From positions 62,001 to 126,000 of the forward strand of contig CAINJJ010000008.1 in assembly GCA_903849645.1 (NCBI GenBank): a stretch of 64,000 nt of DNA, written 5' to 3'. Shown here piece after piece: positions 1 to 51,026 of this stretch. The notes below the pieces were generated by a model. It saw nothing but the letters and a program-made list of their open reading frames with translations. It searched no databases and was not told where the DNA came from. Within the stretch, counting starts at the first letter, position 1, and the number at the start of each line of letters is the position of its first letter. The stretch comes from an uncultured Acidobacteriaceae bacterium (GTDB lineage Bacteria > Acidobacteriota > Terriglobia > Terriglobales > Acidobacteriaceae). The position numbers and the translations under genes are program-made.

Positions 1-725
1 GCGGGCAGTTGGCCCGTCGCGGCAAAGCGGCCGCGGTAGTCCTGGTTTCCCGCGGCGAGTTCCGCCTCTCCCCCCGCCCTTGGGACGGCGAGATAAAAAT
101 AGCCCCAGTTGATGCGCAGGTCGTCTCCGTTTTGCTCCAGCATGGGCTGCCTTGAGGTGCCCACACGCAGCAGGTCAAGCTCGTCCAGCTTTGCCCGCGA
201 CCAGACCACCGGTTCATCGGCCATGTTGGTGGCAACCGCCCCATCCACATCGAGATAGATTGAGACATCGTGGCTGGATCCATCCCGCGACTTCACCTCC
301 CAGCTCAGGTAGGTCACGGGTCGCGCCAGGATGCGCAGGTCATCGGGAAACGACGGTGTCAGGAACGTCACCCGCAGTTCGATCTCCGCGTTCTGCTGCG
401 TGACGATGGTGCGCGTCGCCGTGACCTGCCGGTGCGTCTCATCGAGCGCGGGGATGCCGCCATCCGCGTCGCCCAGCCAGCGATAGATCTTCCCATCTAC
501 GCGCACCAGGCCGTTGATGGCCTGCTGCCTGCCGGTCCAGTGCCGTGTCGTTCCGCCCGTAAGCTGGTCGGCCTCGGACCAGATGCTGAAGTAAGGGTCA
601 TGCACCACCAGAGGAGTTGCGGGAGCCCGCAAGTCCGCCGCTGCCTGCTGTTGCCCGCTCGCCCCGACCGCAGCCAGGCCGAGAAGACCCGCCATCAACG
701 CCTTGTTCCAGACTGAAAGCTTCAT
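1..725 (-). CDS. Glutaminase A-like secreted protein, N-terminal part (cut by window edge)
   Basis: An open frame runs leftwards from an ATG at 725 to the window edge with no stop, giving about 241 residues. The N-terminus (MKLSVWNKALMAGLLGLAAV) looks like a Sec signal peptide. Shortly after come HDPYFSIWS and LTGGTTRHWTG, followed by INGLVRVDGKIYRWLG. These match the N-terminal domain of the glutaminase A / DUF4964-DUF5127 family, whose members are large (about 800 residues) secreted proteins; the catalytic-side domain would lie outside the window. The next gene upstream on the same strand is a GH127 arabinofuranosidase, so the two may be co-expressed for extracytoplasmic substrate breakdown. 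The family assignment is fairly secure; the activity is not. Confidence 0.8.
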   Translation of the reverse strand, partial: MKLSVWNKALMAGLLGLAAVGASGQQQAAADLRAPATPLVVHDPYFSIWSEADQLTGGTTRHWTGRQQAINGLVRVDGKIYRWLGDADGGIPALDETHRQVTATRTIVTQQNAEIELRVTFLTPSFPDDLRILARPVTYLSWEVKSRDGSSHDVSIYLDVDGAVATNMADEPVVWSRAKLDELDLLRVGTSRQPMLEQNGDDLRINWGYFYLAVPRAGGEAELAAGNQDYRGRFAATGQLP

Positions 726-776
726 TGCACCATTCCTTCTCAGTTCGCTTGTGACCTTTTGGCCTAAACGCGCCGC

Positions 777-2849
777 CTACAGCTTCAATTGCGGAAAGGC
801 CGTGATGCGCAGCTTGGCGGCCGCATAGGGAATCAGCGTAATCGTCTCTTCCGGCTGATCACTGGCCACCGGGCTCTGCGGAAGCGGATTGGCAACACCG
901 TCTTCCGCGCGCCAATCGTTGATCTTGCGCGCCTTCACGGTGAGCTTTACCGGTGCATGGCGGCTTGTGAATGGGCCCTCGCCCACCACGGTCTCCGTCA
1001 CCTCGATGCTCTTCTCCGGCGCGCCGGCATCCACGCTCAAGGCATAATTCCACGCCGTGGTGGGATAGACCTGCCAGTCTGCCGTCATGCCGCGGTCGCG
1101 CAGCTTGACCCAGCTCTCCCCAACGTTGTGAGAGAACACCAGCGGCCCGCGCTCGATGGCGATCGAGTTGTTGAACCAGCGGGAGACGCGCGGCGTCATG
1201 GCAAAGCGAATCTCCACCCGATCGCCGGCCTTCCATGGCCTCTCGATGCGGGCAAACGTCCCTGGTTGGGGCGCCGGTGCGGCCTGACCGTTCACCTGGA
1301 TCGTTGTGCCCGCGGCCCATGCCGGAATGCGGAGTTGCAGGGGGAAGCTCAGCGGCGCTGCCGGGTTCACCGTCAAACGCACCGATCCATGGAACGGATA
1401 GCTGGTCTCTTCCACTACGTGCACCGATACGCCGCGCACCCGGGTGTGTACTTCGCAGGGAGCATACACCGCGGCCACCAGCCCGTCGCTGGCCGCGCTG
1501 CCCTGCTCGCCCGACAGCATGAAAAGGCTCGATGCGAACTTGGGCCATCCCTGGTGGAAGTTGGCCGTGCAGCAGCCGAAGTTCGGCTCCAGGCCAAACA
1601 GGTTCGACTCGGGACCGTCGCTCACCCAGGGCTTGTGGTGCAGGCTGCACTCCACCTGGTTCGGCTCCTGGTTGTACTGGTGCGCCCACATATCGTCAGT
1701 GAGCGTCCCCGGCAGCGCGTTAAAGGCCAACTGTTCGAGCCGGTCGCCCAGCGAAGGGTCGCCCACAATCGCCAGCGAGTGTTCCAGAGAAAACATGTAC
1801 TCCACCACCGTGCATAGCTCCGAACCCTGGGAAGGATCGGTTCCCGACAAATGCTCATCGCAAGCAAACATGCCGTTGGGCAGGCCGTGATACCTGTTCA
1901 GCTCAGCGATCATTTGCAAGACCGCCGAGCGATCCGACGCAACACCAGAGACCTGCGACCATACCGGGCCGGTCTTGATCGCCTGTCCGTTGTTCACGCC
2001 GTGCGTGGCCAGCGCCAGGTCCTTGAGCCCCTCGCCCTGATCAAGCTTCAGATACTCCGCCGTCACGCGCTGCGTATAGGGGAAATGTGCAAACTCCGCC
2101 ACCCAGTCATAGCCCTGCATGCGCAGCAGGCGCGCCAGGTCGAGAAGATAGGCTGATCCCGTGCGGTTGTAGAGCCACAGCACACTGAGCAGCTCATCCT
2201 GCCAGCGAAACTTGCTCCAGTCGCGCAGCGGGCGTTGCGGCAACTCGCCGAGCTGGTGCTTGAAGTACCTCTCCATCACTGGAATCACGCGCGGGTCGCC
2301 GGTGAACTCCTGATACTGCGTCAGCACTTTCAGCATCACAAAGCGCGGCCACCAGTCATCGTTGGAGGCCGGTCCGATCATGCCGTTCGCGGCCTGGTGA
2401 TCGAGCGTCCAGTCGATATAACGCTGCGCCTTGGCCTTGAGCCGCGCGTCGTCCAGCAGCCAGGCCAGCGGCACCAGGCCATCCAGAAAGTAAGGTCCCC
2501 GCTCCCACGACTCGCCCTTGCCGCCGAGCCATCCGCTGTCGGGGCCTACGTCCGCCCAGGTCTCGTCCAGGTGCCCGCTCAGGCCATTGGCCTGAATGCG
2601 CAACTGCTCGCGCAGCCATCCCGTTGGCCGCACCGACCCCAGGGGCAAAAACGAAAATGATCTGGGCGCGAGCGGTGCGCGATTCTTCACGGCGGCCTGC
2701 GGTTCCGATGCCATGTCTCCCGAGGCCAGAACCTCCGCCCCGCGAGCAAGCAGCCCGCTGCCCATGGGAAGAGCCGAGGCCAGTCCAAGAAGTCCCGCCC
2801 GGTTCAGAAAGCGGCGGCGGGATGAGTCAGTTTTCGACGTGTGCTTCAT
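777..2849 (-). CDS. GH127 beta-L-arabinofuranosidase-like glycoside hydrolase (DUF1680), Tat-exported
   Basis: 690 residues. The ATG at 2849 is preferred over the upstream in-frame ATG at 2945 because GGGAG lies just upstream and the protein then starts with a Tat signal (SRRRFLNRAGLLGLASALP). The segment FSFLPLGSVRPTGWLREQL and the WLGGKGESWERGPYFLDGL block are typical of DUF1680/GH127. In characterised GH127 enzymes zinc is held by Glu-x-Cys and a Cys-Cys pair, one cysteine being the nucleophile. Here these are visible as SELCTVVEY and FGCCTANFH, so the catalytic centre looks intact. The expected role is release of beta-L-arabinofuranose from plant glycans in the periplasm or outside. It lies 51 bp upstream of the glutaminase A-like gene on the same strand. 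Confidence 0.88.
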   Translation of the reverse strand: MKHTSKTDSSRRRFLNRAGLLGLASALPMGSGLLARGAEVLASGDMASEPQAAVKNRAPLAPRSFSFLPLGSVRPTGWLREQLRIQANGLSGHLDETWADVGPDSGWLGGKGESWERGPYFLDGLVPLAWLLDDARLKAKAQRYIDWTLDHQAANGMIGPASNDDWWPRFVMLKVLTQYQEFTGDPRVIPVMERYFKHQLGELPQRPLRDWSKFRWQDELLSVLWLYNRTGSAYLLDLARLLRMQGYDWVAEFAHFPYTQRVTAEYLKLDQGEGLKDLALATHGVNNGQAIKTGPVWSQVSGVASDRSAVLQMIAELNRYHGLPNGMFACDEHLSGTDPSQGSELCTVVEYMFSLEHSLAIVGDPSLGDRLEQLAFNALPGTLTDDMWAHQYNQEPNQVECSLHHKPWVSDGPESNLFGLEPNFGCCTANFHQGWPKFASSLFMLSGEQGSAASDGLVAAVYAPCEVHTRVRGVSVHVVEETSYPFHGSVRLTVNPAAPLSFPLQLRIPAWAAGTTIQVNGQAAPAPQPGTFARIERPWKAGDRVEIRFAMTPRVSRWFNNSIAIERGPLVFSHNVGESWVKLRDRGMTADWQVYPTTAWNYALSVDAGAPEKSIEVTETVVGEGPFTSRHAPVKLTVKARKINDWRAEDGVANPLPQSPVASDQPEETITLIPYAAAKLRITAFPQLKL

Positions 2850-3246
2850 GTTCAGCTCCCGGCAAATCCTGCATCCGGACGCAGGGCGCTGCGCCGGTGG
2901 ACTTGTTCCATCGGCGATGAGTATACCAACCCATCGAACCGCCAAGACGCCCCGCCGCCAGGCCGCCCGGCAGGGAGCGATTTCAGTTCAGGCACACATT
3001 TTCATTTCGCATGAAACGCTGCGCGCGGGCGGCGCACTACTAGTCTGCACGCGCTCATGCGGCGCGATGCTTTGACCCAAGCAAGCCGCGTCGCCGCGGA
3101 ATCGTCCCCAACCAGGTTCTCGCGACGCCTGCGATCAGGATGTGTCTGCACGGCACAACCGTTTTGCAGGCCGAGCAACTGCGCCACGATTTACCCGCCC
3201 TTGCACTGATGGTGAAGGGGCCCAACCGCTGCAAGGAGGTGTTCTC

Positions 3247-5376
3247 ATGACAACGTCAAACAGCCCGGAACAGTCCCGGTCCGAAATCTTCCACAAAAGC
3301 AGGCTTCAGTTCTTTGAGCTGCTGGCCGGCAACCCCAACTACTTCGGCAACCTCAAGAACAGTCAGTTCAAGCCAGTCTTTCCCATTGTCACCGACACGT
3401 TCTATGAGACCCTCACCTGTGTCGGCTTCAATCCCTCCACCAACCTGCTTGAGGCCGTGGTGCACATCAACCAGGCATCGGGCTACAGCGGCTCACTCTG
3501 CCAGCCCGGCTCCTACGAATATGTGCGCTTCTTTGTCGACTACGGCTCCGGGTGGGAAGACGCCGGCCTGGCAGCCATCAACGTACACGATATTCCCGCC
3601 GCCAATGACTGTCAGCAGTCCACTGAAAAGCCTCTCAGCTATGCGGCATCGGTGACACTTGTCCCCAAGTCCAACTGGTGCTTCTTCCCCGTGCTGCCCA
3701 GGGTGCGCGCCATTCTCTCGTGGAACGCCATTCCCACCGCGGGCGACCCCGGCTACACACCTATCTGGGGCAATGTTCTTGAGGCCGAGATCCAGATTCA
3801 GCCGCGTCCCTTCTTCCTCGGAGAAGTTGCCGCCACGCTGAACGAGGCAGTCAAGAAGATCATCCCGCCCGAAGAGCTGGAACTGGCGCTGCAGATTCCG
3901 ATCCCCGTCCCCGACCCCGGTCCGCTGGCGCTTCATGAACTCGCCGGGCTTTACGGAGCGCATTCGTCCACGGCGGTCAGTGCCAAGGCCAATGCCGTTC
4001 CCTCGCATCGCTTCGGATTCGCGGAGCTGCACCAGGCCCTCCACGCCAAGTCCGCCAACTCCAGCGCCATTCTGAGCAAATTCTCTGAATGGAAGAGCCT
4101 CGGCCTTGACTGGGGCGCGGCCATCACCAATCTCAACGAGATCGACGCCAACGTCAGCTACGAACAGCTCGAGTGCCTCGGGCTCGAGGGCGGCTTCGGA
4201 CTCGAGCGGCTGGTCGCCAACTTCGTCATCAAGCAGCCCGCCGGCTATGGCGGCGGCTTGTGCACGGCAGGGAGCACGGAATACGTGGCCTTCTGGGCGG
4301 ACTGGGATGACACCTGCGACTACACCTACCTGGGCACGGTCGGCGTGCGCGTCCATGACATCGCCGCCATTCCCGCGGAAGGTCTGGTCTACTCGGCGGT
4401 TCTGCCCGTCGACCTGAGCCACCACCGCACCCCGTGCAACACGCCCAAGATCGGGCGCGTCCGGGCCGTGCTGTCGTGGGCCGTTCCGCCCTCGACGACC
4501 GACCCCTACGCTCTCACCTACTGGGGCAACCTGCTCGACGCGCATGTGCAGATTCAGCCCGGCACGCAGCCCAACTACCTCACCCCGACCATCAGCATCC
4601 TGGGCGGCGTTCCCACCAGCATGATCGACAGCATCACTGGCCTCACCACTTCCTCGGCGGTATTTGCGCTCACCAACACGGCGACGGATGCCCTGGGCCG
4701 CGCTTGCCCCTTCGGCGGACGCGTCTCGGTGCAGGGCGAGCTCTTCCCCGGATACAAGTACAAGCTCACCGTGCAGGACACCGTCGGCGGGCTGCCACAG
4801 GACCTGATCACGCCGCTCACACTCACGCGCTGGGATGGAACCACCTATGTGAGCAAGCCCGACGCGCAGCACTACTACACCTACCAGGATCCGACGCAGA
4901 ACATCGATTCGCTCCTGGGCGAGTGGGACACCGGCGGAGACGACCTGTGGCAGATCACGCTGCAGATCGCGGATCTCGCCGACAACCCAATCCCTGGCTC
5001 GGTGCCCGATACGCACCTCATTCAGTTGGACAACACCGCTCCGCAGGCCGTCGTGCATCTTGACAACAATCTGGATTGCAGCCGGTTCGTTGTTGGAGCC
5101 AAGTTGCAAGGGCACTACGTCGCCTATGACGCCAACTTCGGATCATTCAGCCTGGGCACAGAGCCGTTCTCCGGACCGGTGACGCCTTCCAGCGGCAATG
5201 CGCCGACAGCGGCTCTTCCCTCCAGCGGCGACGCGTGGAGTCTTGACACAACCGGCATGACTCCCTGCGGCTACGTGGCGGTTCTGGTCGTGGCCGATCG
5301 AAGCATCGTGAACAGCTCGCCCGGAAACCACAACTTCGCGAGCAGCTCCGTTGGCTTCTGCCTGCTGGCGAAGTAG
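3247..5376 (+). CDS. Unknown 709-residue protein with two copies of an approximately 130-residue domain
   Basis: The start at 3247 is set by an AAGGAGG site 8 bases upstream; the frame is open earlier but has no such signal. No family was recognised. Two homologous segments are visible. Residues 55-187 contain GYSGSLCQPGSYEYVRFF, RVRAILSW and WGNVLEAEIQIQP. Residues 307-438 contain GYGGGLCTAGSTEYVAFW, RVRAVLSW and WGNLLDAHVQIQP. Both begin with a Cys-containing strand and end in IQP. A C-terminal third of about 270 residues is beta-rich with no matching copy. No signal peptide is visible. It is the first gene of a co-oriented run ending in a CHAT peptidase at 11373 and could be a structural or adhesive product of that cluster (inference). 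Confidence 0.85.
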   Translation: MTTSNSPEQSRSEIFHKSRLQFFELLAGNPNYFGNLKNSQFKPVFPIVTDTFYETLTCVGFNPSTNLLEAVVHINQASGYSGSLCQPGSYEYVRFFVDYGSGWEDAGLAAINVHDIPAANDCQQSTEKPLSYAASVTLVPKSNWCFFPVLPRVRAILSWNAIPTAGDPGYTPIWGNVLEAEIQIQPRPFFLGEVAATLNEAVKKIIPPEELELALQIPIPVPDPGPLALHELAGLYGAHSSTAVSAKANAVPSHRFGFAELHQALHAKSANSSAILSKFSEWKSLGLDWGAAITNLNEIDANVSYEQLECLGLEGGFGLERLVANFVIKQPAGYGGGLCTAGSTEYVAFWADWDDTCDYTYLGTVGVRVHDIAAIPAEGLVYSAVLPVDLSHHRTPCNTPKIGRVRAVLSWAVPPSTTDPYALTYWGNLLDAHVQIQPGTQPNYLTPTISILGGVPTSMIDSITGLTTSSAVFALTNTATDALGRACPFGGRVSVQGELFPGYKYKLTVQDTVGGLPQDLITPLTLTRWDGTTYVSKPDAQHYYTYQDPTQNIDSLLGEWDTGGDDLWQITLQIADLADNPIPGSVPDTHLIQLDNTAPQAVVHLDNNLDCSRFVVGAKLQGHYVAYDANFGSFSLGTEPFSGPVTPSSGNAPTAALPSSGDAWSLDTTGMTPCGYVAVLVVADRSIVNSSPGNHNFASSSVGFCLLAK

Positions 5377-5444
5377 TCAGCGTACGCCAGTCACCGTTGC
5401 CTCCCCTCTCCGCCAACCAGCGAGCAGGGGAGGCAGGAGGCTTT

Positions 5445-5801
5445 ATGGATCTCTTGCGCATCGTCGTCGCATCCCTGGCAGTCTGGAGGCTCACGCACTT
5501 GCTGCACACAGAAGACGGACCCTTCGACATCTTTGAGCTTTCCAGGCGGGGCCTTCGCCGGGCATCGCTTTCCGGACTCGCCGACTGCTTCTACTGCCTC
5601 AGCATGTGGGTGGCCGCGCCGTTTGCGCTGGCTCTCGCCTCCTGCTGGCAAGACCGATTGCTCCTGTGGCCGGCGCTCTCAGCCACCGCCATCTTTCTCA
5701 ATCGCCTGGCCGAGTCAACCATGAAGGCCGCCTACCACGAAGCACCACTGATCGAGGAGAACCTCCCATGCCCTGCTGCGGAAACGCCAAAAGACAACTG
5801 A
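5445..5801 (+). CDS. DUF1360 family membrane protein
   Basis: 118 residues. The ATG at 5445 follows GGCAGGAGG at a good distance; an in-frame TTG at 5397 has no such site. The N-terminus MDLLRIVVASLAVWRLTHLL is followed by a Gly/Leu-rich stretch containing DCFYCLSMWVA and two hydrophobic helices. The Cys-x-x-Cys within YCLSMW is the recognisable feature of the DUF1360 family, which has no assigned function. The next gene starts 34 bases before this stop, so the two are translationally linked. In this cluster the protein may anchor or assist assembly of neighbouring products (inference). Confidence 0.85.
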   Translation: MDLLRIVVASLAVWRLTHLLHTEDGPFDIFELSRRGLRRASLSGLADCFYCLSMWVAAPFALALASCWQDRLLLWPALSATAIFLNRLAESTMKAAYHEAPLIEENLPCPAAETPKDN

Positions 5802-6013
5802 CCACGGATGTCCATGCCCACCCCGGCGCCGTCCGCGTGACCGACGCCATGCTGCGCGCCGCTCGGTTTCGCTACGCCGGCAAGACGCGCCTGACCGCTG
5901 TGGGGGCCGTGACGCGCACGCTTTATCGCTTCGACGCGCCCGGAGCCCAGGCCATTGTGGATGGAAGAGACGTCCCCTCCATCGCCGGCATTCCCATGCT
6001 GGTGCGCGTCTGA
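5768..6013 (+). CDS. Small unknown protein, MPCCG type, following DUF1360
   Basis: 81 residues. The ATG at 5768 is preceded by GGAGAACCTCCC inside the DUF1360 gene, which it overlaps by 34 bases. It starts MPCCGNAK, a Cys pair at the N-terminus that could bind metal or be acylated. The second half has a beta-rich pattern: F-x-Y-x-G-x-T-x-L-T-x-V-G-x-V-T-x-x-L-Y-x-F, then VDGRDVPSIAGIP. The 71-residue protein encoded at 6129 shares this pattern, so the two are probably paralogues. Small proteins of this look are often seen beside DUF1360 genes (memory, not checked). Function unknown. Confidence 0.75.
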   Translation: MPCCGNAKRQLTTDVHAHPGAVRVTDAMLRAARFRYAGKTRLTAVGAVTRTLYRFDAPGAQAIVDGRDVPSIAGIPMLVRV

Positions 6014-6128
6014 GCCCTGAGCCGCGCGCATCCCTGATTCTTCCGGACCCCGCTGGACGAGCAAGGCAGCGGCCATCTGGCCGACCACGCAACTTCGCCA
6101 CGACCCGCATGATTTATGGAGAAGCATC

Positions 6129-6344
6129 ATGAGCTGCGCTCAGAACCCCACCGCCTTCGGCTTCGATAGGCTCCCGTTCGACGAGTCGCTCAGAATCTAC
6201 TACCGCGGAGACCAGCCCTTGGAAGTCCACGGTGGGGCAACCGGCAAGGTTTACCAGTTCTCCGAGCTGACAAGGGTGCAGCCGGTAGACCCCAGGAATG
6301 CCGTCTTTCTGCTTTCGAGCAAGCTCTTCAGGCTGACCCTATGA
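6129..6344 (+). CDS. Small unknown protein, paralogue of the MPCCG-type neighbour
   Basis: 71 residues, with GGAGAAGC just before the ATG. After a short N-terminus with one Cys it reads IYYRGDQPLEVHGGATGKVY, then QFSEL, VDPRNAVFLLSSKLF. The order Y-x-G, V-x-G-x-x-T-G, Y-x-F, V-D-x-R-(D/N)-A follows that of the 81-residue protein encoded at 5768, which supports duplication. It is separated from that gene by 115 bp. The stop overlaps an in-frame ATG (ATGA at 6341) of the sigma-factor frame, but the sigma gene has a better start further down. Function unknown. Confidence 0.7.
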   Translation: MSCAQNPTAFGFDRLPFDESLRIYYRGDQPLEVHGGATGKVYQFSELTRVQPVDPRNAVFLLSSKLFRLTL

Positions 6345-6446
6345 CCCCCGCATCCACTCCCGCCGCCCCCAGGCGCGCCACTCGGCGCCCCATCCGGCCA
6401 TCGTCTCCGGACCGTGGTTTTCATCCTCAGCCCGCGCTGGCGATGC

Positions 6447-6452
6447 TATACT
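6447..6452 (+). promoter_or_regulatory. Extended -10 promoter element for the sigma-factor gene
   Basis: TGCTATACT at 6444-6452 is an extended -10 (TG-N-TATACT). No good -35 is visible 16-18 bases upstream. Transcription from here would start near 6459 and give a leader of about 23 bases before the GTG start at 6482. That argues the sigma gene has its own promoter and does not use the longer ATG at 6341. Confidence 0.5.
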
Positions 6453-6481
6453 CGGCTCCACCCCGGTCTGCGGAGCCGATC

Positions 6482-7078
6482 GTGCAATTTGATTCATTCG
6501 ATGCAGGTTACATCGACAGTTTGTGTGCCGGTGACCAGCGAACGCAAGATCACTTCGTTGGCTACTTCAGCACCCTGCTCCAGCTCAAGCTTCGCTCGCG
6601 ACTCCAGTCGCCGCAAGCCATTGAAGACGTGCGCCAGGAGACGTTCGCGCGCGTGCTGACTGTGCTGCGCAAGGACGGCGGCCTGCGCCAGCCGGAACGG
6701 CTCGGGGCGTTTGTCAACACCGTCTGCAATCATGTGCTCTTTGAGCAGTACCGCTCCTCGCGGCGCAGCGAGTCGCTCGATGAAGAGGGCCGCCCGGAGT
6801 TGCCCTCCAAAGACGCCGATGTGCTCGATGTAGTTGCCGCCCGGCAAATCAAGGACAAGGTCCGCGAGATCCTCCTCGACATGCCCCCCCGCGACCGCTC
6901 GCTGCTCCAGGCTGTCTTCATTGAAGAGCGTGACCGCGACGAGGTCTGCCGCGAGTTTGGCGTAGACCGGGACTACCTCCGCGTGCTGCTCCACCGCGCC
7001 AAGCAGGAATTCAAGGTTGAGTATCTCAGGCGCATGGCGGGCAAGGCGCCCTTCAGCGCGGCGGAAAACATAGTTTGA
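6482..7078 (+). CDS. ECF-type RNA polymerase sigma factor
   Basis: 198 residues from GTG 6482, which has CGGAG six bases upstream and a TATACT box before it. An in-frame ATG at 6341 would add 47 low-complexity Pro/Arg residues and is less likely. Region 2 is visible as IEDVRQETFARVLTVLR followed by FVNTVCNHVLFEQYR. Region 4 is a helix-turn-helix with MPPRDRSLLQAVFIEERDR, EVCREFGVDRDYLRVLLHRA. The length is normal for the family. The downstream gene, 59 bp away, is a zinc-finger anti-sigma factor, so this is a classic sigma/anti-sigma pair. The likely regulon includes the CHAT cluster around it (inference). Confidence 0.9.
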   Translation: MQFDSFDAGYIDSLCAGDQRTQDHFVGYFSTLLQLKLRSRLQSPQAIEDVRQETFARVLTVLRKDGGLRQPERLGAFVNTVCNHVLFEQYRSSRRSESLDEEGRPELPSKDADVLDVVAARQIKDKVREILLDMPPRDRSLLQAVFIEERDRDEVCREFGVDRDYLRVLLHRAKQEFKVEYLRRMAGKAPFSAAENIV

Positions 7079-7137
7079 AACGATTGAACGCCCTGGAAAC
7101 ACTATCTTTCAGGACAGTATGCCGGGAGAAAGACCCA

Positions 7138-7845
7138 ATGAATCACAGCGAAGCTCTACAACAGATGGCCGCCGAGCGTTACCTCCTCGACGAGCTCAAA
7201 CCCGAGGAGCGCGAGGCATTTGAAGAGCACTTCTTCGAGTGTCCCGACTGCGCGCTTGACCTGCGCGCCGGGGTTGCCTTTGTGGATGAGGCAAAGGCGC
7301 AACTGCCCGCGCTGGGCGTGAACCTGCCCGCCTCGGCCGCGGCGCCGGTTCGTGTTCCAGCCCCCAGGGCAAAAGTCAATCGCTGGTTCTCGTGGGGTCT
7401 GCCCTCCTTTGCCGTGCCCGCATTTGCAGCCTTGCTGCTTGTCCTCGGCTACCAGAACCTGGTTACTTATCCGGCGCTGCGCGCGCAGTCAGAGCAGCCC
7501 CGCATTCTCCCCTGGGCGCCCACCCACGGCGCCACCCGCGGCGCGCGGATGGTCATCACCGCCGACCGCAAGCACGGTGTTGCCCTGCCCATCAGCCTTC
7601 CAGACGCCTCCGGCACTTCCGCCTTTGCATCGTGCTCCTTTGACCTCACCGACCCCCAGGGAAAGCTGGTCTGGACAGGCTCTGTACCCCTCTCCAGCGA
7701 CGGCGCGGACCAGCGCATTTCGCTCGTCATCCCCGGCGCCACGCTGCGCAGCGGCAGCTACACCATTGCCGTCTCCGGCATTGGCCCCCAGGGCGAACGC
7801 ACCGTCATTGATACCATCGCCTTCGAAATTCGATTGACCGATTAG
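7138..7845 (+). CDS. Membrane anti-sigma factor with zf-HC2 zinc finger
   Basis: 235 residues; GGGAGAA precedes the ATG at 7138. Residues 1-45 form a zf-HC2 anti-sigma domain with the ligands H31, C35 and C38 (HFFECPDC). A single transmembrane segment lies at about residues 88-108 (LPSFAVPAFAALLLVLGY). The remaining 125 residues would be outside the membrane and are beta-rich. The known role of such proteins is to hold the cognate ECF sigma factor at the membrane until a signal releases it. It is followed, after 184 bp, by an unknown protein and a CHAT peptidase, which could cut it or act downstream of it (inference). Confidence 0.88.
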   Translation: MNHSEALQQMAAERYLLDELKPEEREAFEEHFFECPDCALDLRAGVAFVDEAKAQLPALGVNLPASAAAPVRVPAPRAKVNRWFSWGLPSFAVPAFAALLLVLGYQNLVTYPALRAQSEQPRILPWAPTHGATRGARMVITADRKHGVALPISLPDASGTSAFASCSFDLTDPQGKLVWTGSVPLSSDGADQRISLVIPGATLRSGSYTIAVSGIGPQGERTVIDTIAFEIRLTD

Positions 7846-8029
7846 TCCGCTTTCGGATATACAAGCAGCGAGACCGCACTAGAACGATGGGCTTCCCCGC
7901 AGTACGCCCGCGTCATGATCGGTAAGGCCGGCGCCTCTTCCCTGGGTGTCCGCTTTCGTTTTCGCATCATGCGCCCAACTCCTGAGAATTCAGTAGCCCC
8001 CACTGCTCTATCGGAAGGATGACCTCCAG

Positions 8030-8887
8030 ATGCCTGACCCCATCAAAAGAGAACACTTCTATCACGCCGAAGCCACTGCCCTCTCGGGCCACTTCGATCT
8101 CCCCGTCAACCAGCAGGTCGAATCCCGCATCTATACAAAACTCCCGGAGACGGGCGGCTACCTGGCGCAGCGTTCCGATGCCTTCCGCGTGGAGTCCGTC
8201 CTTTACTACCGCTCCGCCTATACCCAGGTCGCCGGCAACAAGGACGTCAAGGCGGGCCACGGCTGGACCTCTCTCGCGACCGCCGTCGTGGAAGGGCTCA
8301 ATGTCCTGGACATCGTGACCGCGGATCGTGTTGTGGGGCAGGTCTCCGTCGAGCATCCGCTGGTTGGCTACGTGCCCAGGGTCACCTTTCTCGGCACGCG
8401 CTTTGACAATCTCCGCATCGCCGGCCACCCGGTCAAGCTCGATCTCCATCCGGATCTCTTCGGCTCCAGCCCCGCCAGCGATGGCGCCTACACGCGCGAC
8501 CAGGGGTTTCTGGGCCGGGTCGCGAGCCAGTTCGAGCACCTCCACCGTCAGCCCGACCTTCCCGCCGAAGTGCATGGGCGATACAATCGACTTCCCGCGA
8601 CCTCTGGAGAGGGTGCGCTCAAACAGGAGAAGGTCGAATGCTCTCTGATCAACCAAGCCGATGGCGCCTACCCTGGCAGATCCTTCGGCCACGTGATCAA
8701 GGTCCCGGACTTCGGGACGATCTACCTGGCGACGGTCAGCGTGGAGCATTCGGACTTTCAGGACCAGACCGGAGTCCCCAAAGAGACGCTCATCCACCTC
8801 AACATGCTGGAACTGGAGATGGGCTGCCTCGCCAGCGGCAGCGTCAAGGTGAGCGCGATGATCGTAAACGGACGCTCAAAGCCCTAG
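8030..8887 (+). CDS. Unknown 285-residue protein of the CHAT/ECF cluster
   Basis: The ATG at 8030 has GGAAGGATG 15-9 bases upstream. No signal peptide or membrane segment is visible. Recognisable stretches are SVLYYRSAYTQVAG, VEGLNVLDIVTADRVVGQ, GYVPRVTFLGTRFDNLRIAG and FGTIYLATVSVEHSD. I believe proteins with these strings occur in other Acidobacteriota and some cyanobacteria as hypothetical proteins (memory, not checked). The core is beta-rich. The CHAT reading frame that follows is already open within the last 250 bases of this gene, so translation is probably coupled. It could be the substrate or partner of the CHAT peptidase (inference). Confidence 0.8.
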   Translation: MPDPIKREHFYHAEATALSGHFDLPVNQQVESRIYTKLPETGGYLAQRSDAFRVESVLYYRSAYTQVAGNKDVKAGHGWTSLATAVVEGLNVLDIVTADRVVGQVSVEHPLVGYVPRVTFLGTRFDNLRIAGHPVKLDLHPDLFGSSPASDGAYTRDQGFLGRVASQFEHLHRQPDLPAEVHGRYNRLPATSGEGALKQEKVECSLINQADGAYPGRSFGHVIKVPDFGTIYLATVSVEHSDFQDQTGVPKETLIHLNMLELEMGCLASGSVKVSAMIVNGRSKP

Positions 8888-8895
8888 CCACCCTC

Positions 8896-11373
8896 GTGGC
8901 TCTTGCCGCCGCCGTTGTGCCGCTCGATGGCGGCGCGCCGCTGCTTCCTGCCGACGCACTCAAGCGAATCACCGCGGTCTTTCAACAGGGAAATCTGACT
9001 GACAGCCAGGAGCTCGCGGCCAGGGCCAGCGCGCGGCTGCAGGCCACGGCGCCTGCATGGGCAGCAAGGTTCACCATCCTCGAGGCGGAGTCCGCCGCAT
9101 GGCGAGGAGCCAACCCCGAGGTGCTACGCCTGCTTGAGGCGCCGGCTCCGGCATGGGCCGACCCCGGCATCGCAATTCAACGCCTTGCTCTGCTCGGCCT
9201 GGCGCGCGCCCACATGCATCAGTTCGACCAGGCGCAGGCCGCCTTTGCGCAGGCACAGGCAGCCTGCGCCGCCAGGGAAGCGGAGCCGTGCGGGGAACTG
9301 CTGCGCGCCCGCGGCGGCATGGCCATGGAGCAGGGGCAATACAAAAGTGCTTATCGGCTCTGGGCGGAGAGTCTGGCCTCCGCGCAAAGATTCAACCGGC
9401 CCTGGGACGAGTCCGTGGCGCTGTTGAATCTGGGGACCGCCTGCCTCATGGAAGAGGACTTTGACGAGGCCATCGGCTGGCTGCGCCGCGCCCAACGGCT
9501 CGCGGTCGAGTTGAATGCCGGAGACGTTCTCGCCACCACCCTGGGCAATCTGGGCTGGGCTTATTACAAAATCGGCGATGCCGAGAAGGCGCTCGCCGCG
9601 TTCAACGATGCGGAAAGGCGCTCGGTGGCGCTTGGGGATACGGGAGGCGCCATTACCTGGCTCACAACCGCGGGAGTCATCTATCAGGACTCCCATGACC
9701 TGCCCCGCGCCTCGCAATACTATCTGCGGGCCCTGCAGCTTGCCCGGCAGATCAACAGCAAGGAAGACATCGTCAACTCCCTCGAACTGCTCGCCGACCT
9801 CGCCGTCGATGGCGAAGACGACAACAAGGCCGGCGCGTATATCGCCGAATTGAATCCCCTCATTCAGGCGGACGGCAATCGCCTGGATGCGCTCGACGTG
9901 ACTCTGGCGCAGGCCAGGATCGAAGCCGCCCGCCGCAATGACCAGAAGGCGGAGGAACTGTTTCGCACAGTGGACCGCGACCAGGATGCCCTCGCCTACA
10001 TGCGCCTTGCCGCGGAGCATCACATGGCCGTACTTTTCCAGCAGCAGGGCAAGCCCGCGCAGGCGGACAAGATGTACAAGACCGCCCTCAACACCTTTGA
10101 GTCTTCGCGCCAGCAGCTCAAGGAAGAGACCTCGCGGCTTCCTTTCCTCGCCAACGCCACGCCCATCTACGACGACTACATTCAGTTTCTTGTCGCGCAG
10201 GGCAAGCCGGAATCAGCGCTGCTCGTTGCCGATCAAAGCCGCGCGCGCACCCTGGCCCAGGGCCTGGAGCCGGCCGCGCGAGTTCCGTCGTTGTCTCCCA
10301 GGGCCGTAGCGGGCAAAACCGGCGCCACGCTGCTCTTCTATTGGCTGGGCGAGCGGCAGTCCTGTCTCTGGGCCATCACTCCCGAGGCGGTCACTCTCTT
10401 CCCGCTCCCTCCCCGTCGTGAGATGGATGCCCTTGTCGAGCGCTATCGCCGCGACCTTCTCGACGCGGAGTCTTTGCTCCATGAGGACAACGACGATGCA
10501 AAGGCTCTTTACAGGCTGTTGGTGGCTCCGGCGGCCCGGCTTCTGCAACCCAATGCCCCTGTCATCCTTCTCAATGATGGAGAGTTGGCCAGGCTGAACT
10601 TCGAGACGCTCCTGGCGCCCGGCCCCAGTCCACATCAGCCCCCGGCAGAGACCCCGCACACGAGCCTCAACGTACACTACTTCGTCGAGGATGCGACCCT
10701 GGTCTCCGCTCCATCTCTTGCCATGCTCGCCGCGGCATCGGCTCCTCGCGAACAGTTGCGCAGCCTGCTGCTCGTCGGCAATCCCCTCTCGCCGGGACCG
10801 GACTTTCCCACCCTGCCTCTCTTCGGCTTTGAGATGAGTCAGATGGAAAGGCACTTTGCCACCGGCCATCATGCCGTCTTTACCGGGCAGCAGGCCACCC
10901 CCGCGAGTTATCTCTCCAGTCATCCGGAGCAATACGCTTATATTCACTTTGTCGCTCATGCGGTCGCCAGCAGGACAGACCCGCTTGACTCGGCCATCGT
11001 ACTTTCTCCCAGCCCTTCCGCATCGGACGCATACAAGCTCTACGCCCGCGACATCATGCGCCTGCCCATCCATGCGCGGCTCGTCACCATCTCGGCCTGC
11101 AACGGAAGCGGCGCCCGCGTCTATGCGGGCGAGGGGCTGGTGGGGCTTTCCTGGGCTTTTCTGCGCGCTGGCGCTCAGAACACCGTGGCTGCCCTCTGGG
11201 AGGTAAGCGATGAATCAACGCCCCGCTTGATGGACGCGCTCTATCAGGGCATGGAGGAGGGTCTCTCTCCAGCGGCTGCTCTCCGTCAGGCCAAGCTCTC
11301 GCTGCTTCATGCGCCCGGCCGCTTTCGCGACCCGTTCTATTGGGCGCCTTTCCAGATCTACACCCGGCAATAA
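8896..11373 (+). CDS. TPR-CHAT caspase-like peptidase
   Basis: About 825 residues from the GTG at 8896; the real start is unresolved. The frame is open upstream to an ATG at 8638, and the residues just before 8896 (RKRTLKALATLV) look like the charged part of a signal peptide, yet no ATG, GTG or TTG lies near. Residues 100-500 are helical TPR repeats (for example LGNLGWAYYKIGDAEKALAA). The C-terminal 300 residues are a CHAT domain, with the expected dyad at H688 (IHFVAHA) and C735 (ISACNGSG), then GLSWAFLRAGAQNTVAALW. CHAT proteins are caspase-fold proteases activated through protein contacts. Here it ends a run that includes an ECF sigma factor and its anti-sigma factor. Confidence 0.88.
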   Translation: MALAAAVVPLDGGAPLLPADALKRITAVFQQGNLTDSQELAARASARLQATAPAWAARFTILEAESAAWRGANPEVLRLLEAPAPAWADPGIAIQRLALLGLARAHMHQFDQAQAAFAQAQAACAAREAEPCGELLRARGGMAMEQGQYKSAYRLWAESLASAQRFNRPWDESVALLNLGTACLMEEDFDEAIGWLRRAQRLAVELNAGDVLATTLGNLGWAYYKIGDAEKALAAFNDAERRSVALGDTGGAITWLTTAGVIYQDSHDLPRASQYYLRALQLARQINSKEDIVNSLELLADLAVDGEDDNKAGAYIAELNPLIQADGNRLDALDVTLAQARIEAARRNDQKAEELFRTVDRDQDALAYMRLAAEHHMAVLFQQQGKPAQADKMYKTALNTFESSRQQLKEETSRLPFLANATPIYDDYIQFLVAQGKPESALLVADQSRARTLAQGLEPAARVPSLSPRAVAGKTGATLLFYWLGERQSCLWAITPEAVTLFPLPPRREMDALVERYRRDLLDAESLLHEDNDDAKALYRLLVAPAARLLQPNAPVILLNDGELARLNFETLLAPGPSPHQPPAETPHTSLNVHYFVEDATLVSAPSLAMLAAASAPREQLRSLLLVGNPLSPGPDFPTLPLFGFEMSQMERHFATGHHAVFTGQQATPASYLSSHPEQYAYIHFVAHAVASRTDPLDSAIVLSPSPSASDAYKLYARDIMRLPIHARLVTISACNGSGARVYAGEGLVGLSWAFLRAGAQNTVAALWEVSDESTPRLMDALYQGMEEGLSPAAALRQAKLSLLHAPGRFRDPFYWAPFQIYTRQ

Positions 11374-11495
11374 CTCAACTCGCTCGTTCGTCTCGCACCG
11401 CACCATACCTGCGCGCAGGAAGAGGGCGACGGCCATACAGGCCGTCGCCATCTTCCCTGTTCGCACAGCCGGGGGGAAGCCGATGCGAAGTTCAA

Positions 11496-12575
11496 TCAGT
11501 ACGCGGAGCCTTCGGTCTGCATCAGGAAGGCCGACGGTCCCAGAAGCGTTGGATAGGACTCGGCATTGCCGCTGTTGTCCAGTCCGACAATGGGGTAGGA
11601 CGAGGCGCTGCTCGGATTGTATGCGGCGTAGTTGAAGGTCACGCCATAGGAGCTCCAGAACACGTCGTCAATGTAGTTGGTCAATGTGGCCAGGGAGCCG
11701 TTGACACCAGGCCGCTCCACAATCCACTCGGCCGAGTTGCCCGAGAGGTATGTTCCAGCGGGCGCCGTGAAGCCGATCGACACTGCCTGGTTGGTGTTCT
11801 CGTTTACCAGGTAGGCATAGCCCTGCGTGGCCGACGTGCTCCACACTTCCACAAAGTAGTCGTCGCCCGGAGCGATGGGGAGATTCGTGATCCGAACCTC
11901 GCCATACGGGTACCACTCATACCAGGGCGAGTAGTAGGTCGAGGTGCCGAAGATGCTCGCATAGGCATCAAACTCAACGCCTGCCTGCAGCACATCCGGG
12001 GAGCCCCAACCGTCGATGCCCACCCACGAAGAACCGTAGTCCCATCCGCCGTTGGCCACGCCAAATGCCTGACGCGCAACCGGAACCACAAAGTCGGAGT
12101 AGACATAGTAGAACGATCCGCTGGTGCGGCCAGAAGCGCCGGCCAGGTTCACATAGCCGCTCCAGTTATAGCTGTAGACAGTGTCGCTCACGCTGCCCGG
12201 CGCGCTTGCATTCGCAATCGCATTGGCAGTCGCATTCGGATCCGCCTTGGCGCTCTTGGCCTGCCGCGCGGGGCCATGGAAGACGCTGGTCTGCTCCAGC
12301 CTGGGAGCGATGCGGCTCTTCGATGCGTTGATCGCCTTCGTCCAGCTTGCATAAGCCTTGGGCGAGGTGTTTTGATCCGGCCGCGGTGGGAACCCGTGAT
12401 ACGCCAGATCTTCGTCCGAGGCGTTGATCGCATCAAAGCCCGCGGGAGGTGCCACGATGGTGGTGGCGCCCGGAAGATTGGTTGGGCGCTCGTTGGGCTT
12501 CATCTGTTGGGCGTTGCCGGCCAGCGGAGCAGCCAGGGCAAAAGTCATGACGACGGCGAGGGGGAGGTTTCTCAT
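11496..12575 (-). CDS. Secreted G1 family glutamic endopeptidase (eqolisin-like)
   Basis: 359 residues. The ATG at 12575 is chosen because AAGGA lies at correct spacing; the ATG three codons earlier is too close to it. A Sec signal peptide (RNLPLAVVMTFALAAPLAG) is followed by a pro-region of about 130 residues. The mature part contains WSGYV, WVGIDGWGSPDVLQAGVEFD and NSAEWIVERP. In the G1/eqolisin family the catalytic Gln and Glu sit in exactly these LQxGV and AEWIxE contexts, so the active site seems intact. The enzyme would be an acid-active extracellular endopeptidase, made as a zymogen. It converges with the CHAT gene. Confidence 0.87.
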   Translation of the reverse strand: MRNLPLAVVMTFALAAPLAGNAQQMKPNERPTNLPGATTIVAPPAGFDAINASDEDLAYHGFPPRPDQNTSPKAYASWTKAINASKSRIAPRLEQTSVFHGPARQAKSAKADPNATANAIANASAPGSVSDTVYSYNWSGYVNLAGASGRTSGSFYYVYSDFVVPVARQAFGVANGGWDYGSSWVGIDGWGSPDVLQAGVEFDAYASIFGTSTYYSPWYEWYPYGEVRITNLPIAPGDDYFVEVWSTSATQGYAYLVNENTNQAVSIGFTAPAGTYLSGNSAEWIVERPGVNGSLATLTNYIDDVFWSSYGVTFNYAAYNPSSASSYPIVGLDNSGNAESYPTLLGPSAFLMQTEGSAY

Positions 12576-12958
12576 GTGAGTCATCCTTGTGCGGGGATTT
12601 CTCTGATGGGCTATCAGAGTGTTGCTGCTCAATAGTGCAAACAGCGGCCGCATCGTTACACGCGGTTCCCCTCACGTTGCGGATTTCAGCACAAAGACGG
12701 GAGTCGATATTGAAACCCGGCAAGGCCCGAAGCCTCAAGCTCCAGTCGTGTCGTCGCCGACCTGGCAGCAGCCCGTACTCATCCGCCGCTGCAAAACGCT
12801 GGCTCCGCCGAAGCACCTCACTGATAGCCCCAGCCCCCTGCTGACGTTCAACGCCTGAAAATTCTCCGCCGCGACTTTGCCGACAATCAAGTGCCTCTGG
12901 CGCACAATTTCTCTGGAGTCCTCCCAACGGTCCCGGCGCTGTCAAGCGGCAGCAGCCC
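12576..12958. other. Intergenic stretch between two minus-strand genes
   Basis: 383 bases without a convincing gene. It is upstream of the G1 peptidase gene and downstream of the DUF1080-PHP gene. Open frames here have no ribosome site and their translations are arginine- and alanine-rich noise. No clear terminator or promoter was found. Confidence 0.5.
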
Positions 12959-14452
12959 TCAGCCCGCCGACGCCCGCCACTTCTTCGTCTGGATCGGCTT
13001 CTGCCCCGCGGGCTTGGGCACAAAGATATCCCGCCACGTCAGCCCGCACTCCCGCACCATCCGGATCGGGTACTCCAGCCGCCCCAGCTCAGCCGCCGCA
13101 TTGTTTGTGCCAAATGAAAACTTCGCGCCCGCCGCCTTGGCCGCCCGGATAAACGCCGCGCTCGGAATCCTGTAGCGGTCGTTGATCTCGATCGCCACGT
13201 CGTTCCGCACCGCCGCGTCAATCACACGGCCCATGCGCTCCGGCGTCCACAGCGCGTCGTACTCCTGGGCAATCTGCGCCGGCAGAAACGTCGAGTTGGC
13301 ATAGATGTCGATCGGCTCGTGCATCACGCCCTCGATGCGCTTCACATACATCTCCATGAACGCCTGCTTGTCCGCAATCACGCCGATCTCGTCCGGCAGC
13401 CAGATGCGCATCCGCTTGCCGCTGTCGTCGGTAAACGTCATCGCGTCCGTGAAGCAGTAGTCGAACCGCGCAATCGACTCCGGCGAGGTGAGCGTCATCC
13501 ACTCGCGCCCCTCGCCCTGCAGCGCCACATAGCAGGGCTGCCCCTTCATGCTCTCCAGGTAGTCGTGCACGCTCGCGTCGCTGTGCACCGGGAACCCCAT
13601 CCCGCAGTTGATCGCCACGCCGTAGTAGATGCCCAGCCGCCGCGAGGTTGCCAGCGCCTGCTCAATCGTCAACCCGCCCTTGAGGTGCACGTGATAGTCC
13701 ACCAGCGGATAGTTCTCCTCGCCTAGCCGCATCGTCTCGCGGTAGAGCTCGTCCACCACCGGCCGCTCGCTCGAGCTCTGTGTCGCGCTGTCCGGCAACC
13801 GGCGCGCCCGGATGTCTTTGAAGTACGTCGTGCTCCCCGCGTCGTGCCCCTGCAGCGCAAAGGTCCCGTGGCTCAGAACCCGCTGGAAGTTGGTGTCGGC
13901 CCGGAACGGCTCCTCCGGCTCCACGTAGTCCACCACCAGCATCTCGTTTACCCTGACCTGCACCTGCTTGCCCCGCACCAGAATGTTCATCCGGAACCAC
14001 TCGCCGTCGTTCACCAGTTGCTTGTAGACGTTGCGCACCGCATAGAGCGAACCGGTCTTCTTCATCTCCCGGTACCCGCCTTCTTCCGCGGGCGTATTCG
14101 CAATCTGCACCTCAAACCCCGCCGCGGGCCACCCCGTCGGCTGATACGCGGTGTGAAAGTAGATCCCGGAGTTCGCCCCTCCCCGCGTCATCACCTCCGC
14201 GTTCAGCTCAAAGTTCTTGAAGTCGGCGTCATGACCGTTCCCCACATAAAACAGGTGCGACCGCTCGCCATGAACAGCAATCTGCCCGTCTGCCACCTTG
14301 AAGGTGCCCGCGTGCTCGCTCGCCTTCCATCCCCTGAGCGACTTGCCGTCAAACAGCGGCGTCCAGCCCTCCGGTTCTGCTTGCAGCGCATAGGCAGCCC
14401 CCGGCGCAGCCAGCAGCATAGCCATCACTTCCCGTCGTGTCAGTCCTGGCAT
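12959..14452 (-). CDS. Exported DUF1080 (3-keto-disaccharide hydrolase-like) domain fused to a PHP/amidohydrolase-like domain
   Basis: 497 residues. The N-terminus TRREVMAMLLAAPGAAYA is a Tat-like signal. Residues 27-225 are a DUF1080 jelly-roll: WTPLFDGKSLRGWK, SGIYFHTAYQPTGWP, GFEVQIANTP. Residues about 245-497 form a second domain with YPLVDYHVHLKGGLT (an HxH metal motif), GVAINCGMGFPVHSD, DIYANSTFLP and FSFGTNNA, resembling PHP or amidohydrolase-fold phosphoesterases. DUF1080 proteins act on 3-keto sugars or bind glycans. The two-domain layout suggests a hydrolase targeted to a carbohydrate, but the second domain's substrate cannot be read from sequence. Confidence 0.82.
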   Translation of the reverse strand: MPGLTRREVMAMLLAAPGAAYALQAEPEGWTPLFDGKSLRGWKASEHAGTFKVADGQIAVHGERSHLFYVGNGHDADFKNFELNAEVMTRGGANSGIYFHTAYQPTGWPAAGFEVQIANTPAEEGGYREMKKTGSLYAVRNVYKQLVNDGEWFRMNILVRGKQVQVRVNEMLVVDYVEPEEPFRADTNFQRVLSHGTFALQGHDAGSTTYFKDIRARRLPDSATQSSSERPVVDELYRETMRLGEENYPLVDYHVHLKGGLTIEQALATSRRLGIYYGVAINCGMGFPVHSDASVHDYLESMKGQPCYVALQGEGREWMTLTSPESIARFDYCFTDAMTFTDDSGKRMRIWLPDEIGVIADKQAFMEMYVKRIEGVMHEPIDIYANSTFLPAQIAQEYDALWTPERMGRVIDAAVRNDVAIEINDRYRIPSAAFIRAAKAAGAKFSFGTNNAAAELGRLEYPIRMVRECGLTWRDIFVPKPAGQKPIQTKKWRASAG

Positions 14453-14580
14453 CCATCCCTCTCAGTCCATCGCAGCGAACCGGCAAGTATAGTGCACAGG
14501 CGGCCTTCCCTGGCCGGGCGGCCTCATCCCGCACGGCAATCTCATGCACTCATTTTGTTCGCCTGACTCGTTCATGTTCT

Positions 14581-14680
14581 GATCGCGCCGTAGGCGCAGG
14601 GTTGAATAGCCCCGCGCTTCAGCGTGGGGAAACTGGCAATCTGATGCCTGCCAGTCCCGTAGGGACGGCGCAAAACGGGG
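14581..14680. repeat. REP-like extragenic element
   Basis: The 272-bp gap between the DUF1080 and SDR genes contains short inverted repeats of a type common in Acidobacteriota intergenic DNA: GCGCCGTAGGCGC, CCCCGCGCTTCAGCGTGGGG, and GTCCCGTAGGGACGGCG at 14654-14670. No gene is visible in the gap. The family link is from memory. Confidence 0.55.
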
Positions 14681-14724
14681 AGTTTGTCATCAAGGCAACC
14701 CCCACACGATTCCCTCCACATTCC

Positions 14725-15387
14725 CTACTCGGCCAGCCTGCGAATATCCCTCGCCTCCAGAACCCCGCTTCCGCGCCCGCGCCGCACGGCGTTCAGCATC
14801 GCCTGCCCCATGTCCCGCGTGGACACAATCTGGTTGGGAAACATGCGCCGAAGCAGCGGCAGCAGCGGACCCAGAACCTTGTAGAAGAACCGGTAAGAGG
14901 GCGTCTTTGACTCAATCCCGTCCATCGGCTCGATGAAGCCCGGCCGGAACATCAGCGCCCGCAGCGGCAGCCGCAGCAGCGCGTTCTCCGTGCGCCCCTT
15001 TACCCGCGCCCACATCATCCGGCCCTTCTCGGAGCTGTCCGTGCCCGACCCCGAGACATACACAAACGTCATGCCGGGATTGAGCCGGCTGAGCGTCTCG
15101 CCCGCCGCCAGCGTGAACCCATAGGTGATCCGCTCATAGTCATCCTGCTTCATGCCGCTCGACGTGACCCCAAGCGTGAAGAAGCACGCGTCAAAGCCCG
15201 TGAGTTGGCTCTCGATGTCCGCATAGTCCGCCAGGTCCGCGTGCACAATTTCGCGAAGCTTCGCATCCTTCATGCCCGTCGCCGCGCGGCCAATCGTCAC
15301 CGCCAGTTCCACGTCCGGGGCTTGCAAGCAGGCGCGCAGCACCCCCTGGCCCACCATACCCGTTGCGCCAAAGATCAGTACCTTCAT
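14725..15387 (-). CDS. NAD(P)-binding atypical short-chain dehydrogenase/epimerase-like protein
   Basis: 220 residues, starting MKVLIFGATGMVGQGVLRA, which holds the Rossmann motif GxTGxxG-like GATGMVG. The segment FDACFFTLGVTSSGMKQDDY and the later FVYVSGSGTDSSEKGRMMWA with ARVKGRTENALL fit the atypical SDR branch with a Y-x-x-x-K-like WARVKGRTE region. The normal YxxxK tyrosine is not obvious, which is common in NmrA/TIP30-like regulators and redox sensors. Substrate unknown. It is divergent from the penicillin-binding gene downstream. Confidence 0.82.
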   Translation of the reverse strand: MKVLIFGATGMVGQGVLRACLQAPDVELAVTIGRAATGMKDAKLREIVHADLADYADIESQLTGFDACFFTLGVTSSGMKQDDYERITYGFTLAAGETLSRLNPGMTFVYVSGSGTDSSEKGRMMWARVKGRTENALLRLPLRALMFRPGFIEPMDGIESKTPSYRFFYKVLGPLLPLLRRMFPNQIVSTRDMGQAMLNAVRRGRGSGVLEARDIRRLAE

Positions 15388-15491
15388 CGCGGCTCCTTGT
15401 CATCACAGACGTTCCCAGTGCGCCGATGGCCTCAGGCCTGCCCGCGCTGCCTCCCGCCCCGGTGATGGATACTCTTGGTGTGCGTGGCGCA

Positions 15492-18106: not shown

Positions 18107-18143
18107 CCCCTCCCCCAGCGCCCGCTGATTTATCCTTCCTTCG

Positions 18144-19925: not shown

Positions 19926-19978
19926 GCGCTGCTTGGGGTACAGCTTCCGATGGAACCGCGAGGCCATCAAGAATGAGA

Positions 19979-20008
19979 CGCCAGAGATCCTAGGTCTCTG
20001 GCGTTTTC
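19979..20008 (+). terminator. Intrinsic terminator downstream of the tandem repeat
   Basis: CGCCAGAGA (19979-19987) pairs with TCTCTGGCG (19995-20003) around a 7-base loop, followed by TTTT. It is oriented for plus-strand transcription, so transcripts from the glycosyltransferase side or from the repeat block would end here. Confidence 0.75.
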
Positions 20009-50841: not shown

Positions 50842-51026
50842 AGCATCACCCTATCTTCTTCGAAGTCCTGCGGCCCTGAAAGCAAGGTGGAGACACAGGC
50901 CCCTTGCTGCGTGACTCTGACAGTGATAGTGCTTGTTCGGGGATGTCCGTTACACCACGATGTGGAGACTACGCCCCACCGAGGCGCTCTCTTCATGCCT
51001 GGTTTCAGAAGCCCCGCTCCGGCTTG

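Follow-up and report, generated by a model that had tools for sequence, protein, structure and literature searches.

Regulated proteolysis of a membrane anti-sigma factor that carries an outer domain is the basis of the RpoE/RseA/DegS and SigW/RsiW systems, and the sigma-W promoter has the form TGAAAC-N16. The portion of PMC10028731 on which we draw describes two precedents for the model proposed below, namely the cleavage of the anti-sigma factor RseA by DegS and, in type III-E CRISPR, the cleavage of a sigma inhibitor by the TPR-CHAT protein Csx29. In the sections of PMC8999054 used here, ECF54 has CHAT-domain proteins in its gene context, its control by proteolysis is proposed and an anti-sigma factor is absent; the same sections report that EcfK/PknS (ECF43) controls the type VI secretion system (T6SS) of Xanthomonas citri via a protein kinase. 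Caspase/EACC2 neighbourhoods with an ECF sigma factor and a DUF1822 TPR protein have also been reported (excerpts of PMC8195603), and the excerpts of PMC8103513 contain nothing on CHAT. In the open-access literature surveyed, as judged by titles and the openings of abstracts, the operon presented here is not described.

The window, i.e. the whole 64-kb stretch of DNA that was analysed, sits on contig C8 of a 4.5-Mb source genome. A preliminary description had placed eight co-directional genes between 3247 and 11373 and treated them as one cluster, and all eight were recovered on the + strand at or near these positions. The first four encode A709 (3247..5376), a 709-residue protein with a duplicated Cys-containing beta-rich domain and no known family; a DUF1360-like small membrane protein (5445..5801); C62 (5837..6013), which ends at 6013 and whose start is provisional; and D71 (6129..6344), a small protein immediately before the sigma gene. 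The last four encode an ECF sigma factor (6482..7078, from GTG 6482, the upstream ATG 6341 being also possible), a zf-HC2 anti-sigma factor (7138..7845) that has a single TM-like segment and an outer domain at its C-terminus, E285 (8030..8887) and a TPR-CHAT protease (8638..11373). The ECF sigma and zf-HC2 anti-sigma pair named at the outset was borne out: the sigma protein passes NCBIfam TIGR02937 (46.6 bits, cut-off 42.9), Pfam sigma regions 2 and 4 scoring under their cut-offs, and the anti-sigma factor reaches 28 bits for zf-HC2 (cut-off 22.2), with the zinc-binding Hx3Cx2C kept in 50 of 51 anti-sigmas. The claim of two small paralogues also held in a profile comparison of C62 with D71 (hhalign probability 97). 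The gene assigned to DUF1360 is there, but its PF07098 score of 18.6 bits lies under the cut-off of 21, and the DUF1360 Pfam family had zero matches in the source genome at E<=0.001. No family matched A709, C62 or D71 at the thresholds used (Pfam, PHROGs, NCBIfam, PADLOC), neither TRADD-N nor DUF1822 was matched in the Pfam scan of the eight cluster proteins, and the PADLOC search for a known defence system gave two weak matches alone, both to the TPR part of CHAT.

Comparison of loci divides these genes into a conserved core and an optional cassette. The core, in the order ECF sigma, zf-HC2 membrane anti-sigma, E285 (choice-of-anchor-P-like) and TPR-CHAT protease, stood on one strand in 55 of 60 loci, which were obtained by a scan of contigs with one genome per species. 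Four of the exceptions (L054, L069, L079, L082) are broken by a contig end, and L084 has E and CHAT alone. Of 297 genomes sampled across the phylum, 13, among them the source genome, have E285 homologues, and in 11 further loci fetched around the phylum matches, some from the same genomes as the 60, sigma, anti-sigma, E and CHAT occurred together in 10. A profile search detected the E family in 138 of 398 genomes of the bacterial family (E+ genomes hereafter, the others being E-). The core is present in the named strains Granulicella aggregans M8UP14, Edaphobacter lichenicola M8UP30 and Paracidobacterium acidisoli 4G-K13. By their titles, relatives in the collection belong to Acidobacteriaceae or to other groups of Acidobacteriota, with the MAG of L084 as sole exception; its contig is titled Gammaproteobacteria and misbinning is possible.

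The cassette genes were less constant, A709 being present in 18 of the 60 loci, the DUF1360-like gene in 14, C62 in 7 and D71 in 13. In 13 of its 18 loci A709 lay upstream on the same strand; in 2 more it was upstream but inverted, and the other 3 had it downstream of CHAT. Among the 398 family genomes it was found in 20 and adjoined core genes in 15 of them; it stood apart from the core in G202, G314, G321, G458 and G624 (the G624 contig is short), with the DUF1360-like gene and C62 still beside it in G321 and G458. The linkage of the A709 cassette to the core is therefore real but optional. The preliminary description had made its proposal depend on conserved linkage, which both the ordered core and the position of A709 provide; the genes and their linkage are real, but it is the last four genes that form the conserved unit, and one indivisible eight-gene system is ruled out by the 5 of 20 family genomes with A709 away from the core.

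One may ask whether common descent alone keeps the E285/CHAT pair next to the sigma/anti-sigma pair, with no joint mechanism. ECF/zf-HC2 pairs are common, two more CHAT genes exist in the source genome, and L084 has neither sigma nor anti-sigma beside its E and CHAT, which also counts against the switch model put forward below, as does L026, where the order is E, CHAT, anti-sigma and sigma was not detected. Nevertheless, the core order survives E protein identities as low as ~27-35% across loci, and the promoter before the anti-sigma gene, described below, leads on into E285 and CHAT, so that we consider mere descent very unlikely.

A phage origin of the small genes was rejected after A709, the DUF1360-like protein, C62 and a D71 relative gave 0 tblastn matches in 50,697 phage records; the sole phage-side match was that of phrog_781 with the DUF1360-like protein (E 3.5e-7). 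The structure model of A709 is poor (pLDDT 56.8) and its comparison by sequence with solved structures returned weak noise. In the phylum sample, G034 (L005) holds an A709 homologue apart from the core on a 7.5-kb contig; this homologue has a signal-peptide-like start and lies between patatin-like and phospholipase-D-like reading frames, named by eye. E285 has a confident, all-beta structure model (pLDDT 92.5). It reaches 24.4 bits for choice-of-anchor P (NF040603, cut-off 27), which is matched by 40 of 51 E family members at E<=0.01 (best 7e-11). Structural comparison gave two Foldseek PDB matches below E 0.001 to photosystem II chain O, distrusted at a TM of ~0.2; the best VIA-align result (Z 4.6, outer-membrane barrels) is not a convincing match, no viral structure was matched at E<=0.001, and a search of E against solved structures by sequence found nothing. 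E proteins frequently close with a short NGxxxP-like tail (8870-8887 in the window), conserved in many members.

A promoter motif links the core to its surroundings. When bipartite motifs were enumerated upstream of A709 homologues, 16 of 24 distinct regions contained GAAACG and CACTA at a constant separation, vs at most 3 in shuffled controls. The promoter halves were counted over 1.49 Mb from 86 loci, in which some genomes are represented twice. A separation of 16 accounted for 104 occurrences (91 distinct sites), each of 24 other spacings for 0-3, and the variants TGTAACG (14 sites) and CACCAY (18 sites) had no background at other spacings. The promoter of this sigma factor is likely TG(A/T)AACG-N16-CAC(T/C)AY, similar in shape to ECF promoters, for example the one of sigma-W. 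In the 398 family genomes, the exact motif occurred in 133 of 138 E+ vs 27 of 260 E- genomes; there were 2.85 vs 0.13 sites per genome, a difference due in part to sites within the module itself, and the reversed-pattern control was flat (0.38 vs 0.33). Five E+ genomes without the exact motif count against the switch model. A script assigned the following reading frame to 120 of 131 distinct sites: 19 A709, 19 anti-sigma, 11 sigma, 7 small membrane-like proteins, 4 tssB (two of these sites coming from regions fetched on purpose) and 4 members of a small divergent family, the remaining target genes being few or single each; many single targets may be chance. Induction of the upstream genes by the sigma factor, as guessed earlier, has good support in the association of the motif with the module and in the sites before A709, anti-sigma and sigma genes, and is probable: an exact site precedes A709, a spacing variant precedes the anti-sigma gene, and the motif tracks the module across the 398 genomes. 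We are highly confident in the conserved core and its promoter association, as judged from these comparisons.

Within the window, the exact site P1 (TGAAACG-N16-CACTAC, 3012..3040, +) lies 207 nt before the A709 start; 19 comparable sites precede A709 homologues. The promoter-like P2 (7076..7105, +) stands before the anti-sigma gene and overlaps the sigma stop codon; its spacing is 17 and not 16, and spacing-16 counterparts are the 19 sites that precede anti-sigma homologues. Spacing 17 was seen once only in the 86-locus half-site count, which counts against the switch model. P3, a variant TGTAACG-N16-CACTAT (12632..12660, -), is located at the start of a Peptidase_A4 gene (11496-12653, -) directly downstream of the cluster; this gene may belong to the regulon as its ninth member. 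P4, the same variant (50926..50954, -), is found ~85 nt before a 1110-residue frame with RoxA-like cytochrome c domains (47509-50841, -), a possible further member. GAAACG-N(15-17)-CACTA has three occurrences in the whole source genome, one ahead of A709, one between the sigma and anti-sigma genes and one at C23:14328, vs five for the reversed control, so that the total is not above chance and the support comes from the site positions, which match those of relatives. The C23:14328 site, with spacing 15 and inside a gene, was taken as chance. The exact full motif occurs once in this genome, before A709, and one-mismatch sites number five, two being the TGTAACG sites P3 and P4; two-mismatch sites (70 vs 209 for the reversed control) were discarded as noise.

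The regulon might extend further in relatives. Among the matches listed, 40 scattered sites were fetched from 11 E+ genomes, and two of them lay 17 and 175 nt before tssB. A search for tssB in 80 chosen genomes, 40 E+ and 40 E-, then found the gene in 17 of the former and 7 of the latter, and its upstream region was examined in 15 and 5 of these, respectively. In 7/15 E+ regions (loci L146, L149, L169-L183) tssB is preceded by a site with no more than one mismatch, or in 5/13 once the two genomes of the first sighting are dropped; the same holds for 0/5 E- regions and 1/600 shuffled ones. In the source genome tssB is present with no site of <=1 mismatch before it, which counts against the switch model. 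Other genes after sites encode a phage-type lysozyme, a phosphoesterase, trypsin-like and pro-kumamolisin/subtilase proteins, and large proteins without a recognised domain. L059 and L061 have sites upstream of the module (~6500-7800), followed by a 172-residue membrane-like protein and by a phage-type lysozyme. A near-identical scattered site (G163:C1:368786 and similar) was seen in eight related genomes among the matches listed, reading TGAAACGGGCTCCATCTGTCGCGCACTAT in six and a close form in two of those listed; in L144 a 451-residue Ser/Thr/Asn-rich protein lies 297 nt downstream of a site of this type.

The protease itself scores 172.8 bits for the CHAT domain (PF12770, cut-off 24). The preliminary description had reported an intact dyad, H688/C735 in the numbering from GTG 8896, and this dyad is kept in 57 of 58 CHAT rows; L049, the exception, is truncated at that point. 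The end at 11373 also stands; the start is probably ATG 8638, preceded by AGGAG and located inside E285, which gives a probable full length of 911 residues with the dyad at H774/C821. The CHAT gene would thus probably begin in the -1 frame of E285 with a 250-nt same-strand overlap (8638-8887); because conservation of the E protein itself contributes to the internal start codon, we infer this overlap rather than observe it. Same-strand gene overlaps this long are unusual, and the E/CHAT overlap recurs in many relatives. The junction was measured in 54 loci, or 53 without L049, an artefact with a fused frame. In 24 of the 53, the hydrophobic CHAT segment starts <=45 nt from the E stop, and in 19 of these 24 no ATG, GTG or TTG occurs from the last 60 nt of E to the segment. 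In 37 loci CHAT is in the -1 phase with a junction of <=130 nt, and the frame stays open at least 232 nt into E in 36 of them, not in L078, vs 4 of 16 other loci; these classes were drawn after the junction data had been seen and L078 was put among the others, so that the Fisher comparison does not test them fairly. At E Cys204, 29/33 loci of the -1/short-junction class have a start codon vs 9/18 others, and a start codon, SD-like sequence and open frame together in 21/33 vs 2/18. Since many junctions are without a usual start codon, a programmed -1 frameshift from E to CHAT was also considered. It is less likely, because the E gene of many loci contains an internal start codon, frequently with an SD-like sequence, and complete slippery heptamers, of differing sequences, were present in 7/36 loci (last 330 nt of E).

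Core conservation, the promoter association and conservation of the CHAT dyad are what the sequence comparison itself provides; the mechanism built on them is a proposal. A simple hydropathy scan detected an N-terminal hydrophobic segment in 48/50 CHAT rows that could be extended, and CHAT is predicted to have a membrane or lipoprotein segment. A lipobox-like motif, in a loose pattern, was present in 18/50 CHAT rows only, and with the start at 8638 the membrane segment follows ~80 residues, which is unusual for a lipoprotein signal; both points count against the switch model. The same type of scan (some genomes twice) gave a TM-like segment in 47/56 anti-sigma sequences, window included, vs only 6/64 E sequences, and E285, for which a signal peptide is not predicted, is predicted to be cytoplasmic. 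From their hydropathy, CHAT and the anti-sigma C-terminal domain are predicted to lie on the same, outer side. Given these counts, the anti-sigma outer domain is predicted to be a better candidate substrate for CHAT than E285. A cytoplasmic CHAT that cleaves E285 as a soluble inhibitor, in the manner of type III-E, would have a functional precedent in Csx29/Csx30 (in the portion of PMC10028731 consulted), and E285 does lie beside CHAT with its conserved NGxxxP-like C-terminal tail in many members; it is difficult to reconcile with the hydrophobic segment of nearly all CHAT rows and with a core that already has a dedicated zf-HC2 anti-sigma factor, and we hold it to be highly improbable.

The explanation that we prefer, to which we give a probability of roughly 40%, is that CHAT cuts the anti-sigma factor and that the cluster works as a transmembrane sigma switch complete in itself. 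The sigma factor would read TG(A/T)AACG-N16-CAC(T/C)AY and the anti-sigma factor would hold it at the membrane. The TPR-CHAT protease, tethered to the outer face of the inner membrane, would answer an envelope or contact signal and cut the anti-sigma outer domain in the role of a site-1 protease. The released sigma factor would transcribe the cargo plus extra anti-sigma, E285 and CHAT, leading to feedback, and E285 would more likely be a partner or an exported cargo than a substrate. Alternatively, CHAT might be an output of the system: another signal or protease would free the sigma factor, and CHAT would process exported E285 or A709, or harm the cell or a neighbour. Given the 19 promoter sites before anti-sigma genes, E285 and CHAT behind them are probably induced, and E285 adjoins CHAT in mapped loci and overlaps its gene. 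Feedback induction is, however, equally expected with CHAT as trigger, and without a predicted signal peptide E285 would need another export route; we view CHAT as output as possible but doubtful. Returning to the transmembrane switch, it could be carried further, in a speculative version that we rate as unlikely. An outer-face caspase-like protease would sense envelope attack or cell contact, cut the membrane anti-sigma factor and switch on a contact-weapon regulon of T6SS sheath, lysozyme, phosphoesterase, protease cargo and signal-less A709-/E-type proteins. If true, this would be a caspase-family-to-sigma signalling route for antagonism across about a third of the bacterial family.

Our results outline a concrete regulon, with candidate promoter, sigma factor, anti-sigma factor, protease and targets, for genes nearly without annotation in a soil phylum that ranks among the most abundant and the least cultivated. 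The promoter motif lets the cargo genes of carrier genomes be listed, and the link to the T6SS points to a hitherto unstudied way of controlling interbacterial weapons. The switch model would also carry the TPR-CHAT/sigma link, so far shown for type III-E CRISPR, into a membrane-anchored, non-CRISPR setting.

Compared with RpoE/RseA/DegS and SigW/RsiW, the locus shares a membrane anti-sigma factor with an outer domain and, with sigma-W, the promoter shape TGAAAC-N16, whereas the candidate protease is a CHAT cysteine peptidase of the same operon, next to the unstudied E285. As in type III-E CASP (Csx29, Csx30, CASP-sigma; PMC10028731, in the part drawn on), a TPR-CHAT gene stands beside an ECF-type sigma factor and an inhibitor, but here the inhibitor is a membrane zf-HC2 anti-sigma factor and CHAT has a predicted membrane segment. 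The likeness to type III-E CRISPR suggested in the preliminary description appears to be functional only; no CRISPR-like repeat array was found in positions 1-20000 of the window, in a scan for arrays alone. Like the caspase/EACC2 neighbourhoods, as far as the excerpts of PMC8195603 describe them, a caspase-like peptidase is linked to an ECF sigma factor and a TPR protein; here, in contrast, TPR and CHAT are fused and a zf-HC2 anti-sigma factor is present. As with EcfK/PknS, an ECF sigma factor is tied to the T6SS, in our case by promoter prediction in some relatives only, and an anti-sigma factor and a CHAT protease stand in place of the protein kinase (PMC8999054, sections used here). Finally, the ECF sigma factor with CHAT-domain proteins in its gene context recalls ECF54 as those sections present it, without an anti-sigma factor, whereas the zf-HC2 anti-sigma factor belongs to the core in 55/60 loci here, and it is by this gene context that the system is set apart.
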